Source of the DNA: Epilithonimonas xixisoli
GTDB lineage: Bacteria > Bacteroidota > Bacteroidia > Flavobacteriales > Weeksellaceae
Reading direction: 5' to 3'
Length of the DNA stretch: 64,000 nt
NCBI RefSeq assembly: GCF_004365655.1
Contig: NZ_SOEO01000002.1
Location: 62,001 to 126,000, forward strand
Shown here: positions 24,453 through 34,922 of the stretch, piece by piece
Numbering within the stretch: position 1 is the stretch's first letter
Layout of the letters: every line of letters starts with the position of its first letter
Translations under genes and position numbers: made by a program
The notes under the pieces: model-generated
Seen by the model: only the letters and a program-made list of their open reading frames with translations
Database searches by the model: none
Told to the model about the DNA's origin: nothing

Positions 24453-26861
24453 CTAAGCTCCGTAAGGAATCCAGATGTTTTTGATTTCTGTCGCGTGGCG
24501 CAAGAATTCTTCGCCTTCGCCTTGTGCATTGTCCAGCCAGTTTCTGTATTTACCGAAATTCAGCCAAGTGCGTTTCATACTGTCTGAGGCTAAAAACTCA
24601 ATATCTTTACAACCTTCTTTTGTACCGAAATACCAGATTCCATCTATATTATAATGTTTTGCTATTTCTTTTGCCAGCTCATCTTTATGTCCTGTTACGA
24701 TATTCACCGTTCCAGCAGGAACGTCGGATGTCTCAAGGATTTGATAAAAATCTGTCGCCGAGAAAGGATGCTTTTCTGAAGGAATTACCACCACATTATT
24801 TCCCATTGCCATTGCTGGAATCACTGTCGAGATAAATCCAAGCAAAGGATTCTCATCGGGACAAACAATTCCCATCACGCCAACTGCTTCCGGCATTGCC
24901 AAGGTTACCATTCTCTGAACGGTAGAATGTGCCTGTCCATCATATTTATCAGCAAATGCGGCATAAGTATAAATTCTCTCAATCGATTTTTCTACTTCTT
25001 CCTGCGCAGATTCCAAAGACTGATTGGTCATTTCCACAATTCTTTCTGCAAACTCTTCAGAACGGATTGCCAGATTTTCTGCGATGTAATAAAGAACCTG
25101 AGCTCTTGCGTGGCCAGTCATTCCAGCCCAAGATTTTTCTGCGTGAGCTGCTTCTACTGCATTACGGACATCTTTTCTATTCCCTTCTGAAACTTCGCCG
25201 ATGTATTCCCCGAAAGCATTCAGAACATTTAAACTATAACCGCCATCAGGACGGGCTTGTTTTCCACCGATGTACAATTTGGAAGTTCTGTCTATATCTT
25301 CAAGAATTGATTTTGATTTTTTGTCAGTCTGAGCTTGTCGAAGACTTGGCTTTTCAGTTTTTGGGATAATTGGTTTTGATGAAAACTCGTCTTCGATTTT
25401 TGGTTTTGTATATTCGTACAAACCTTCTTTTCCGCCTTCTCTTCCAAATCCCGATTCTCTGTAACCACCAAATCCTGCTGATGCATCAAACTGATTGGTA
25501 CAATTGATCCAAACGGCTCCTGCTTTTACTTTTGGAGCAACGTCCAATGCAAGATTGATATTTTCTGTCCAGATGCTCGCCGCCAATCCATATCTCGAGT
25601 TGTTTGCCAAAGCAATCGCTTCGTTGTGAGAACGGAAAGTCATCGCTACCAAGACTGGCCCGAAAATTTCTTCCTGGGCAATCGTTGCGGAAGTTGAAAC
25701 ATCGGTAAATAAAGTTGGTGGATAATAGAATCCGTTTTTAGGAACTGCATTTTTTGCCTGATAGATTTCACAGCCTTCGCTGATTCCTAGTTTTACTAAT
25801 TTATCAATAGTTTTATATTGTGATTCGTCCACAATGGCACCCATATCAATGACTTTGTCCATCGGATTCCCTACGCGGAGTTTTCCCATTCTGTCTTTCA
25901 GTTTTGCATAGAATTTTTCTGCAATACTTTCCTGAACCAACAATCTGGAACCTGCACAGCAAACCTGCCCTTGATTGAACCAAATTGCATCCACAATCCC
26001 TTCGATCGCAGAATCTATATCTGCATCTTCGAAAACGATGAATGGCGATTTTCCACCTAATTCCAAAGAGATTTTTTTTCCACTTCCTGCTATTTCTCTT
26101 CTGATGATTTTACCCACATTCGTAGAACCTGTGAAAGCCACTTTGTTCACATCTTTATGATTGACCAAAGCAGTTCCTGCAACGGTTCCTTTTCCTGTAA
26201 CGATATTGAGAACACCTTTTGGAAGTCCTACTTTTTCACAAATCTCCGCAAACAACAATGCTGTCAATGAGGTATATTCAGCTGGTTTTAAAACGACTGT
26301 GTTTCCCATTGCCAAAGCTGGAGCAACTTTCCAAGCGAGCATCATCAATGGAAAATTCCAAGGAATGATTTGCCCGATGACTCCGACTTCTTTGTAATCT
26401 CTGAGTTCGGTTTCCATCAGTTTTGCCCAGCCTGCGTGATGATAAAAATGTCGCACAACGATTGGAATATCAATATCTCTTGTTTCGCGAATAGGTTTTC
26501 CGTTGTCCAAAGTTTCCAAGACTGCGAACAATCTGGAATGTTTTTGGATTTGTCTTGCAAGGGCGTACAGATATTTTGCACGCTCAAATCCACCGAGAGC
26601 AACCCATTTTGGCAAAGCTTCTTTTGCTGATTTAACAGCTTTGTCCACATCCTTTTCATCGGCTTCTGCAAATTTTGCTAGAAGTTCTTTGTTGGCAGGA
26701 TTGTGAGACTCCATATATTTTTTGGAATTGGGTTTTGTCCATTCTCCATTGATGAACAAGTCGAAAGTTCTATTGTGAGATTCCAGATAATCTACAGCCG
26801 GAGCTGCGCTTTCCGGAGCGGGACCGTAAACCATTGTATCGAATATTTCTTTTATTTCCAT
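24453..26861 (-). CDS. Tandem-domain aldehyde dehydrogenase, ALDH16 type
   Basis: 802 residues from ATG 26861; the frame from 26903 includes an AT-rich repeat tract. The first ALDH domain has IIPWNFPLMM, FTGSTNVGK, LELGGKSPFIVF (catalytic Glu) and GQVCCAGSR (catalytic Cys). The second domain keeps the fold (VVVIPSEKHPFSATD, GTVNIVTGH) but shows no catalytic Cys, as in ALDH16 proteins. The linker near residues 505-515 reads SLRQAQTDK and derives from a family E repeat. With deoC directly upstream on the same strand it probably oxidises acetaldehyde from deoxyribose breakdown. Confidence 0.9.
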   Translation of the reverse strand: MEIKEIFDTMVYGPAPESAAPAVDYLESHNRTFDLFINGEWTKPNSKKYMESHNPANKELLAKFAEADEKDVDKAVKSAKEALPKWVALGGFERAKYLYALARQIQKHSRLFAVLETLDNGKPIRETRDIDIPIVVRHFYHHAGWAKLMETELRDYKEVGVIGQIIPWNFPLMMLAWKVAPALAMGNTVVLKPAEYTSLTALLFAEICEKVGLPKGVLNIVTGKGTVAGTALVNHKDVNKVAFTGSTNVGKIIRREIAGSGKKISLELGGKSPFIVFEDADIDSAIEGIVDAIWFNQGQVCCAGSRLLVQESIAEKFYAKLKDRMGKLRVGNPMDKVIDMGAIVDESQYKTIDKLVKLGISEGCEIYQAKNAVPKNGFYYPPTLFTDVSTSATIAQEEIFGPVLVAMTFRSHNEAIALANNSRYGLAASIWTENINLALDVAPKVKAGAVWINCTNQFDASAGFGGYRESGFGREGGKEGLYEYTKPKIEDEFSSKPIIPKTEKPSLRQAQTDKKSKSILEDIDRTSKLYIGGKQARPDGGYSLNVLNAFGEYIGEVSEGNRKDVRNAVEAAHAEKSWAGMTGHARAQVLYYIAENLAIRSEEFAERIVEMTNQSLESAQEEVEKSIERIYTYAAFADKYDGQAHSTVQRMVTLAMPEAVGVMGIVCPDENPLLGFISTVIPAMAMGNNVVVIPSEKHPFSATDFYQILETSDVPAGTVNIVTGHKDELAKEIAKHYNIDGIWYFGTKEGCKDIEFLASDSMKRTWLNFGKYRNWLDNAQGEGEEFLRHATEIKNIWIPYGA
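25318..25346. repeat. Family E element inside the ALDH16 coding sequence
   Basis: TTGTCAGTCTGAGCTTGTCG followed by AAG, the CTTCGACAAGCTCAG..TGACAA subtype of family E. It is in frame and encodes SLRQAQTDK in the linker between the two ALDH domains. Confidence 0.75.
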
Positions 26862-26953
26862 TTTTTTTAATTTGAAATTTGAGGTTTGAAATTCGAGATT
26901 CAAAATTGAAATTGAAAAAATATTTCAAATATCAAATCTGAATTTTCAAATTT

Positions 26954-32603: not shown

Positions 32604-32697
32604 AATTTTGTCATACTTTCAACTTTAGGTACTAAATTTGTGATTTCAACCAAAATAGAAAAGGCTTCGAGAGCTTCAGCCTGACAAACAGTCGCAA

Positions 32698-32730: not shown

Positions 32731-32825
32731 AAACAGCGTAACAATCTAAAAACACTATCATATTAACGTTGTCCTGCTGAGGCTCTCGAAGCACAGAAAA
32801 AAAAATAAAATTCCATATTAAAATT

Positions 32826-34922
32826 ATGAATCCACTTTTAGAAAAATTCAATACAAAATATACCTCATCCCCTTTCAGCGACATCAAAGAAGAACATTAT
32901 CTTCCCGCATTTCAGGAATTGGTGAAAACCGCTGAAAAGGAAATCGACGAAATCACAAACAATCCCGACACGCCAACTTTCGAAAATACGATTGAAGCAA
33001 TGGCTTTTTCCGGAGAACAATTGGACAGAGTTTCCAGCATTTTCTTCAATCTTAATTCCGCGGAAACCAACGACGAAATTCAGAAAATCGCTCAGGAAGT
33101 TTCGCCACTTTTGACAGAATTCTCTTCCAAAATCTCTCAAAACGAAAAATTATTTGAAAGAATCAAAAACGTTTACGACCAAAAAGACAATTTGTCATTG
33201 AATGAGGAACAACAAATGCTACTCAACGAAACTTACAAAGGTTTTGTAAGAAGCGGAGCATTATTGAATGAAGAAGACAAAAAGAAACTGGAAAAAATCA
33301 ATATGGATTTGTCTATCAAATCTCTACAATTCGGACAAAATGCCTTGGCTTCGACCAATGCTTATTTCAAACATATTACAAACAAAGAAGAATTAAAAGG
33401 AATTCCGGAAGCGATTCTTGAGCAATACGAAGAAGATGCAAAGGAAAAAGGTTTGGAAGGTTACGTGATTACACTTCAATATCCGAGTTATCTTCCTGCA
33501 TTGACTTACGCAGAAAACCGAGAACTCAGAAAAGAATTGGCTTTAGCAAACGGAAAAAAATCTTTTGACGGCGGAGAATTTGATAATCAAAATCTCATCA
33601 AAGAAATCGTAAAACTTCGTCAGGAAAAAGCGGAACTATTAGGTTATAAAAATTATGCAAATTTTGTCTTAGAGGAAAGAATGGCAAAATCGCCGGAAAA
33701 AGTTTTCGAATTCCTAAACGAACTTCTCGACAAAGCAAAACCTTACGCCCAAAAGGAAATCGAAGAGTTAAAAACTTTAGCAAAAGCCGATGGAATAGAC
33801 GAAATTCAAAGTTACGACCACGCTTTTTACGCTGAAAAATTAAGAAAACAAAAATTCGATATTGATGATGAAGAACTGAAACCTTATTTCCAATTGGAGA
33901 AAGTTCAGGAAGCCGTTTTTGGATTAGCCGGAAAGTTATTTGGATTGGAATTTAAAGAAATCAATGATGTTCAGAAATATCACGATGATGTGAAAACCTA
34001 CGAAATTGTTGAGGTTGGAAGTCAGAAGTTGGAAGATGGAAATGAAAAAGGCTTCGAGAACCTCAGCCTGACAACCGACAACCAACAACCGACAACTAAA
34101 TACAAATCCCTGCTCTACGCAGATTATCATCCAAGAAAAGGAAAACGTGCCGGCGCTTGGATGACGAGTTATAAAAATCAGTACAAACAAAACGGAGAAA
34201 ATTCTCGTCCGCATATTTCTGTGGTTTGTAATTTCACGAAACCGACGAAAGACACACCAAGTTTGTTGACTTTTCAAGAAGTGACGACATTATTCCACGA
34301 GTTTGGACACGCACTTCACGGCATTTTGGCAGATACTCAATATCCAAATCTTTCCGGAACATCGGTGAAATGGGACTTTGTAGAATTGCCTTCTCAATTC
34401 TTGGAAAATTTCTGTTACGAACCAGAATTTCTGAAAACTTTCGCCAAACATTATCAAACAGGCGAAATTTTACCCGACGAAAAAATCGAGAAATTATCTC
34501 AAAGCAAATCCTTTATGGAAGGTTATCAGACGATGAGACAAGTTGGTCTTGGGTTGTTGGATATGGCTTTTCATTCAAGCGTTTCAGAACACGAAGTAAC
34601 GGACGTCAAAGAATTTGAAAATCATTTCACAAAAGCAACACAAATCTATCCTTTGAATCCGGAAACGGCGACTGCACCGAGTTTTTCACATATTTTCCAA
34701 GGTGGATATTCAGCTGGTTATTATTCTTACAAATGGGCGGAAGTTTTGGATGCAGATGCGTTCCAGTATTTCAAAGAAAATGGCATTTTCAACCCAGAAA
34801 TCGCTTCAAAATATAAAATCCTTCTTTCTTCCGGCGGAACCAAAGACCCAATGGAATTGTTCAAAGCTTTTCGTGGAAGCGAACCGAAAGTGGAGAGTTT
34901 ACTGAAGCGAGCTTTTGGATAA
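32826..34922 (+). CDS. dcp: M3 family metallopeptidase (peptidyl-dipeptidase Dcp type)
   Basis: 698 residues. The zinc motif FHEFGHALHG lies near residue 490, followed by SGTSVKWDFVELPSQFLENF, as in Dcp/oligopeptidase A. No signal peptide, so it may degrade oligopeptides in the cytoplasm. Around residues 396-428 the protein carries an unusual low-complexity insert (GSQKLEDGNEKGFENLSLTT, then DNQQPTT) just before LLYADYHPRKGKRAGAW. The DNA for this insert matches the intergenic family E element at 32661. Separating Dcp from related M3 oligopeptidases by eye is not certain. Confidence 0.9.
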   Translation: MNPLLEKFNTKYTSSPFSDIKEEHYLPAFQELVKTAEKEIDEITNNPDTPTFENTIEAMAFSGEQLDRVSSIFFNLNSAETNDEIQKIAQEVSPLLTEFSSKISQNEKLFERIKNVYDQKDNLSLNEEQQMLLNETYKGFVRSGALLNEEDKKKLEKINMDLSIKSLQFGQNALASTNAYFKHITNKEELKGIPEAILEQYEEDAKEKGLEGYVITLQYPSYLPALTYAENRELRKELALANGKKSFDGGEFDNQNLIKEIVKLRQEKAELLGYKNYANFVLEERMAKSPEKVFEFLNELLDKAKPYAQKEIEELKTLAKADGIDEIQSYDHAFYAEKLRKQKFDIDDEELKPYFQLEKVQEAVFGLAGKLFGLEFKEINDVQKYHDDVKTYEIVEVGSQKLEDGNEKGFENLSLTTDNQQPTTKYKSLLYADYHPRKGKRAGAWMTSYKNQYKQNGENSRPHISVVCNFTKPTKDTPSLLTFQEVTTLFHEFGHALHGILADTQYPNLSGTSVKWDFVELPSQFLENFCYEPEFLKTFAKHYQTGEILPDEKIEKLSQSKSFMEGYQTMRQVGLGLLDMAFHSSVSEHEVTDVKEFENHFTKATQIYPLNPETATAPSFSHIFQGGYSAGYYSYKWAEVLDADAFQYFKENGIFNPEIASKYKILLSSGGTKDPMELFKAFRGSEPKVESLLKRAFG
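34014..34106. repeat. Family E-containing insertion inside the M3 peptidase gene
   Basis: Within the ORF, AAAGGCTTCGAGAACCTCAG continues to CCTGACAA and differs at only two of about 29 positions from the intergenic copy at 32659-32687. It is flanked by low-complexity GTTGGAAG and ACAACCGACAACC strings that resemble intergenic filler. Confidence 0.8.

Follow-up and report, generated by a model that had tools for sequence, protein, structure and literature searches.

A dispersed REP-like hairpin repeat lies in frame within an M3 peptidase gene of Epilithonimonas

Palindromic repeats that are also read within proteins are established as Rickettsia palindromic elements (RPEs) and as intragenic repetitive extragenic palindromes (REPs) (PMC3733652, PMC10969869, PMC2229807). 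RPEs, reviewed in PMC10969869, are of the long stem-loop kind in the RPE-1 type, at 105-146 or about 150 bp, and according to PMC2229807 one insert-bearing product that was tested, Gmk, remained active. Intragenic REPs belong to the GTAG and CGTC superfamilies, which are short tagged hairpins, mostly intergenic, with some in genes, where dimers or groups encode 20-30 residues and clusters 43-82 (PMC3733652). The same source reports that many repeats carry TGTC in place of the CGTC tag, that CGTC repeats are present in Bacteroidetes, that REPs occupy nearly the same position of recB in two Xanthomonas species, and that RPE-4 and RPE-6 are counted among the CGTC REPs. Here we describe a repeat-bearing insert in an M3 family peptidase gene of Epilithonimonas xixisoli, found in a stretch of 64,000 nucleotides (contig NZ_SOEO01000002.1, positions 62,001 to 126,000; hereafter the window, with coordinates counted from its first letter), and its relation to copies of the same repeat elsewhere in the genus.

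The peptidase gene (32826..34922, + strand; Pfam PF01432 and PF19310) encodes 698 residues in a single open frame that runs through the insert. Its Peptidase_M3 match (E 1.5e-131) is split into two stretches, and the HEFGH zinc motif, of the HEXXH form of the M3 catalytic domain, is kept, bearing out an initial annotation of this DNA that had described an in-frame repeat insert with frame and zinc site intact. The insert is a composite of one hairpin repeat with simple-repeat filler on either side. First comes a purine-rich filler, GTTGGAAGTCAGAAGTTGGAAGATGGAAATG (34014..34044, +), read about VGSQKLEDGN and absent or shorter in empty orthologs; then the REP-like hairpin element (34049..34073, +; supported by pattern match, covariation and fold), read GFENLSLT; then an ACAACC filler (34074..34100, +), read TDNQQPTTK and absent in empty orthologs. 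The core at 34050-34073, GGCTTCGAGAACCTCAGCCTGACA, differs at two positions from GGCTTCGAGAGCTTCAGCCTGACA at 32663-32686 (+), an intergenic copy upstream of the gene seen by direct reading and by pattern match. This match continues into AAA leftward and AA rightward, so that the two differences over about 29 bp first reported hold on direct reading of the window. A second intergenic copy, inverted and with 3 mismatches to the pattern, lies at 32770..32793 (−). The flanking strings had also been taken for intergenic filler; like filler does accompany the repeat elsewhere, but the final codons of the upstream filler (GAAGATGGAAAT) are close to the native turn GAAAACGGAAAT and could themselves be native. 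We consider it very probable that the insert is a piece of dispersed repeat DNA that was copied into a turn of the peptidase and is read there as a tolerated, disordered surface loop. This reading draws on the repeat family and its palindrome, filled and empty orthologs, a frame that stays open, flanks under purifying selection and the modelled position in the turn.

The repeat occurs throughout the genus. Its pattern has 5 matches in the window at ≤3 mismatches against 0.00 expected (100 shuffles), and in the 3.39-Mb genome to which the window belongs (G000) CTTCGAGANNNTCAGNNTGACA occurs at 68 places at ≤2 mismatches and its reversed control at 0, confirming the enrichment that had been anticipated. 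A second pattern, mostly CTTCGACTCCGCTCAG, occupies 26 places in this genome, some of them in inverted pairs. All 23 Epilithonimonas genomes contain the repeat, with 1 to 132 copies each at ≤1 mismatch (controls 0). In 182 of 208 copies from three genomes, the two bases preceding CTTCGA are complementary to the pair of variable bases ahead of TGACA, while shuffled pairings gave a mean of 34 and, in the largest of 2000 shuffles, 50. A TGTC tag (the reverse complement of GACA) is found in 121/121 copies with the base left free, a count favoured by the fetching of loci with a TGACA-ending pattern. The covariation marks the repeat as a palindrome, a REP-type hairpin element, here tagged TGTC, that is maintained by pairing. 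With three subtype patterns at ≤1 mismatch, G000 has 86 copies, and only 15 of these overlap an open reading frame (ORF; cut-off 120 aa), compared with 83 % of random 22-mers in the window. The repeats thus avoid genes and are mostly intergenic and, like the known protein-coding palindromic repeats, form a dispersed palindromic family with many copies outside genes.

How does this element compare with the described families? As in Rickettsia, palindromic repeats lie in frame in conserved genes and are read as extra peptide, and we file the case as one that probably works like the RPEs and intragenic REPs already known. The likeness to Rickettsia drawn in the initial annotation therefore stands for the mode of working and falls short in size, as the unit here is only about 25 bp, accompanied by separate simple-repeat filler, and its host belongs to a different phylum. 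An RPE-1-type element is ruled out by this size and by the stem of 5 + 3 bp; RPE-4 and RPE-6 are, by description, nearer in kind to the Epilithonimonas repeat. Unlike the GTAG and CGTC REPs, the repeat has an interrupted stem with a variable second pair. CGTC stems have 8-9 bp with A-T almost always in the first two pairs, whereas here the first pair is A-T or G-T in 186/208 copies, the second varies, and the 8 pairs of the peptidase copy are broken by a 2-nt bulge; we therefore do not claim membership of the CGTC superfamily. Several subtypes per loop and filler-repeat-filler composites are not described for intragenic REPs in the accessible part of PMC3733652. The repeat's letters occurred in 0 papers of the searchable literature, and searches for REPs or palindromes in Bacteroidetes, Flavobacterium or Chryseobacterium genes led to PMC3733652 and RPE reviews, with no description of this case among the matches listed in that literature, a body that leaves most subscription journals outside its scope, and we do not claim absence in print.

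Orthologs within the genus include both filled and empty forms of the turn. An M3 ortholog is present in 22 of the 23 genomes (G017 has a distant paralog only), of which 10 have a long turn, with 17-38 residues between anchors, and 12 a short one of ten residues, TYEITENGNVKALLY or near, reading EITENGNVKA or near. The earlier statement that M3 peptidases normally have a short turn here agrees with these twelve. GFENLSLT occurs in five of the ten long-turn genomes (G000, G019, G016, G011 and G002), and G013 carries another repeat subtype within the same filler. Behind the repeat stands the ACAACC filler in G000, G019 and G002 and a different filler in G016, G011 and G013; the remaining four long turns consist of other filler (G020, G006) or are short and unclear (G012, G015). 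G013 has filler like that of G011 and G016 on either side, and the repeat enclosed by it is a degenerate form of the other subtype, in a different frame, with VFDSVQTN in place of GFENLSLT. To judge from the sequences, this one case gives the plainest indication that a repeat was exchanged in place.

The turn is also the part of the protein that varies most in length. In seven species pairs, the ratio of nonsynonymous to synonymous change (dN/dS) of the flanks is 0.024-0.042, indicating strong purifying selection, and the insert is far less constrained, with values of 0.29, 0.40, 0.81 and 2.04 (the last for the pair L099/L108), all from few sites. In a 49-row alignment the turn takes 14 lengths over a range of 28, compared with 3 lengths and a range of 17 in the next most variable region. 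An AlphaFold model of the insert-bearing protein, built from 49 sequences, places the extra loop at residues 398-423, as 26 residues of coil between strands 390-397 and 424-433. The predicted local distance difference test score is 28-29 over residues 401-420, with the strands kept on either side. The model of an empty ortholog has strands at 390-396 and 399-407 joined by a two-residue turn. Among solved structures, those nearest to the empty ortholog L090 are the M3 dipeptidyl carboxypeptidases 5l43 and 1y79; they align through this hairpin, have no insert and differ by a turn at most one residue longer in both alignments. In the models, then, the position of the insert is compatible with the M3 fold, and the exposed loop that had been suggested takes the form of a predicted disordered surface coil within a beta-hairpin turn.

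Across genera the turn changes length often. Among 83 non-redundant M3 orthologs, 35 have at least 14 residues between the anchors and 48 have fewer, requiring at least 19 changes on a quick tree that omits 15 named loci repeating genus genomes and 4 of the 80 named loci (L145, L146, L150 and L155), which the motif missed. In four Chryseobacterium loci (L101, L102, L110 and L111) the turn includes FDSAQADR or a close variant, encoded by subtype CTTCGACTCCGCTCAG, which is exact in L102 and L110 and degenerate in L101 and L111; the turn of L102 contains an exact CTTCGACTCCGCTCAGGCTGACA, read FDSAQADR, and that of L124 reads VFDSAQND. Other long turns resemble filler alone (NQEPTT, NQQPATNN, SPKSPKGTCSSPSGRSGGD, GGQKSKVSSELKASDTQLPTSD), and some, such as ESGKDSAEEHF, have no clear origin, all by-eye classifications of the DNA. 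The reading of the initial annotation is supported here: 12 of the 22 orthologs in the genus have the short turn. Longer turns do occur at this site in Chryseobacterium and Kaistella, where several again contain repeat DNA of another subtype or filler-like DNA, others being without clear origin. Because the short state is common to other genera and to the solved relatives, the M3 insert is probably the derived state. Separately, the turns of G020 (L037) and Kaistella chaponensis (L164) have 30 residues each with the same GTTTCCAGCGAATTG core, and their sister rows on the tree each have a short turn; the TTTCCAGC filler common to the two was not found elsewhere among the loci collected.

Beyond what the initial annotation had seen, copies lie inside other genes, and one and the same loop holds different subtypes in different species. 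Nine of the 15 ORF-overlapping copies in G000 are internal, the other six standing at the end of an ORF or in one that inspection by eye made doubtful. The nine are in the genes for the M3 peptidase, PrmC (twice), an aldehyde dehydrogenase, a copper ATPase, a ketoacyl synthase, thiamin pyrophosphokinase (TPK), a protein resembling alpha-2-macroglobulin and one of 229 aa that matches nothing in Pfam. In G002, 8 of 72 copies are internal and fall in five genes with Pfam support: a NadD-like cytidylyltransferase, an alpha-2-macroglobulin (three copies), an RNA methyltransferase (an inverted pair), a sigma-54 regulator and MvaD. These eight come from 19 ORF-overlapping copies, the rest being one at a C-terminus and 10 left uncounted, in ORFs with masked letters or judged doubtful by eye and without a Pfam scan. 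G001 has 1 internal copy of 53. Of the 18 internal copies in the three genomes, 17 are in sense orientation and one, in an inverted pair, is antisense, and most of the peptides they spell are polar (LREPQPDN, FDSAQTDN, GFENLSLT, STPLRMT). The preference for sense orientation could reflect filtering of the protein products. The copies are in frame and free of stops, in conserved genes that have homologs without them, as with the known protein-coding palindromic repeats. The RNA methyltransferase gene of G002 (L340 1333-2115) holds a whole inverted repeat pair in frame.

Several loops differ in subtype between species. The PrmC linker is of the LREPQ type in 10 of the 23 genomes, short in nine and of other kinds in four, including G011 with FDSAQTDN; four of the ten LREPQ-type linkers also have an FDSxQTD or FESAQTD stretch, and a second PrmC site is FDSAQ-like in 13/23 genomes, diverged in some. 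The TPK loop reads FDSAQDDR in G000, LRQAQNDN, an exact copy, in G010, and LREPQRDS in G013, G014 and G019 (exact in G014 and G019), leaving 18 of the 23 genomes without an intact repeat. In the copper ATPase, read at 19 of 20 loci (the motif missed G002), two genomes have LRESQRDN, three an LRQAQ-like and seven an FDSAQ-like stretch (some degenerate) and seven none, with an exact pattern match in six of the 19. The copper ATPase of G000 (L013 707-2995) also has a linker, QTSKPETRNPELETQNQGK, between two N-terminal cysteine-rich segments that resembles intergenic filler. The ketoacyl synthase repeat is exact in 2/15 orthologs and has one mismatch in a third. Within the window, the aldehyde dehydrogenase gene (24453..26903, −; 816 aa; Pfam, orthologs) carries an in-frame copy of subtype CTTCGACAAGCTCAG (25322..25345, −; pattern match, orthologs), read SLRQAQTD; it is present in G000 and absent in both relatives read (98 % identical, G013, and 95 % identical), a comparison made without L198 (G010). 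In the search table, the aldehyde dehydrogenases of G009 and G010 (L197, L198) show one TAA within the matched stretch.

The combination of repeat and filler recurs as well. With the peptidase insert as a DNA query, repeat plus filler was found in other places of the genus, of which seven outside M3 were opened: three are in genes (MvaD of G014, GFESLSLTTDNHQPSTINK; TrpF of G009, VGSQKSEVRREIGKVFDHAQTDNQKPTTINY; PrmC of G004) and four in no ORF of ≥90 aa. Among the 18 of 23 trpF loci read, G017 also has the composite, and in G009 and G017 filler of the upstream type precedes the repeat; the other 16 have no repeat there, and most have an ACAACC-like tract.

These observations are consistent with a mechanism in which one REP-like hairpin unit and the simple-repeat filler that commonly accompanies it would have been copied into the M3 beta-hairpin turn, where the insert would persist as the turn tolerates extra residues. 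The same process would have hit other genes of the genus, the survivors being copies that kept the frame, without a stop, in a permissive loop or linker, and some such loops may have been struck or rewritten by different subtypes on more than one occasion. The insert is presumably translated and its loop probably neutral. Copying might proceed through a transposase or by template switching between repeats. Y1 transposase genes (PF01797) occur in 21/23 genomes; of six such loci linked to trpF, two (G009, G017) have a repeat copy, inside trpF, about 0.3-0.4 kb off. A transposase link is not established. In these six genomes (G009, G017, G013, G014, G012 and G003; loci L410, L411, L412, L413, L420 and L430) the IS200-like Y1 gene comes immediately after trpF in the same orientation, and in five of them it is followed by a frame that we take to be trpB-like.

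Several points weigh against this account. The hairpins fold weakly, with z from -1.65 to -0.12 in six folds: the peptidase copy forms 5 bp, a 2-nt bulge and 3 bp, and three copies other than this one gave one fold of 5 + 2 pairs, one of 5 pairs with a large loop and one different hairpin; the TPK copy folds otherwise. A repeat copy within about 1.5 kb (≤2 substitutions) was found at 0/11 of the first-examined Y1 transposase loci. Direction of change is not settled at every site: several repeat-less TPK loops (IIQQAQ) may be decayed repeats, and the CTTCGACAATCAG or near of repeat-less ketoacyl synthases could be a remnant of a deletion between two GAC of the repeat, or else a native stretch where copying began. 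Finally, net gains are often 5-6 residues (aldehyde dehydrogenase, ketoacyl synthase, copper ATPase), under one whole unit, and are therefore no clean insertions; this suggests that native sequence was partly replaced, which would fit template switching as well as transposition.

A different history is compatible with copying into the turn and is an alternative to repeated gain: the six Epilithonimonas inserts (five with GFENLSLT, G013 with the other subtype) could go back to a single gain, followed by spread or loss through interspecies recombination, a scenario to which we give an even chance. The six share the upstream filler, one downstream filler is common to G000, G019 and G002 and another to G016, G011 and G013, and a single clade of filled species is rejected by two data sets, the peptidase flanks (p-AU 3.3e-31 with all ten) and PrmC together with TPK (3.8e-45 with ten, 3.0e-43 with six), although these are quick trees and the groups were picked once the tree was known. 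Movement of alleles between species and repeated arrival of copies would each account for this; a single gain leaves the other subtypes in other genera and the subtype swap of G013 unexplained. That copies are kept for a hairpin function in DNA or RNA, such as messenger stability or protein binding, and are not merely tolerated, seems improbable: 15 of the 18 internal copies keep both pairing bases and 17 the inner one, but the search pattern favours intact copies and many relatives' copies at the same sites are degenerate. Least probable of all, and scarcely credible for the repeat itself, is the view that the loop is a rapidly evolving low-complexity stretch native to the protein, similar to the intergenic repeats only through composition or slippage, since the loop contains a 22-base pattern with compensating bases and the same turn in Chryseobacterium another palindrome subtype, even though the ACAACC and GGAAGT tracts are slippage-prone, an ACAACC-like tract stands in the trpF loop of most of the 18 genomes read and part of the upstream filler resembles native turn codons. 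The covarying palindrome rejects compositional convergence for the repeat; a native or slippage origin is possible for parts of the filler.

Copying of dispersed repeat DNA into the turn, our preferred reading, leads to a more tentative proposal, one we think rather less likely to be right than wrong: that certain loops are standing landing sites, rewritten repeatedly from the repeat pool, including by in-place exchange of subtypes with the frame kept. If true, dispersed non-coding repeats would be a supply of interchangeable cassettes for protein loops. The case extends protein-coding palindromes to a group of Bacteroidota in which many species have been sequenced, some having and others lacking each insert, and its sites with several subtypes per loop make it testable whether such inserts serve the protein, and how REP-like repeats without an established transposase move.
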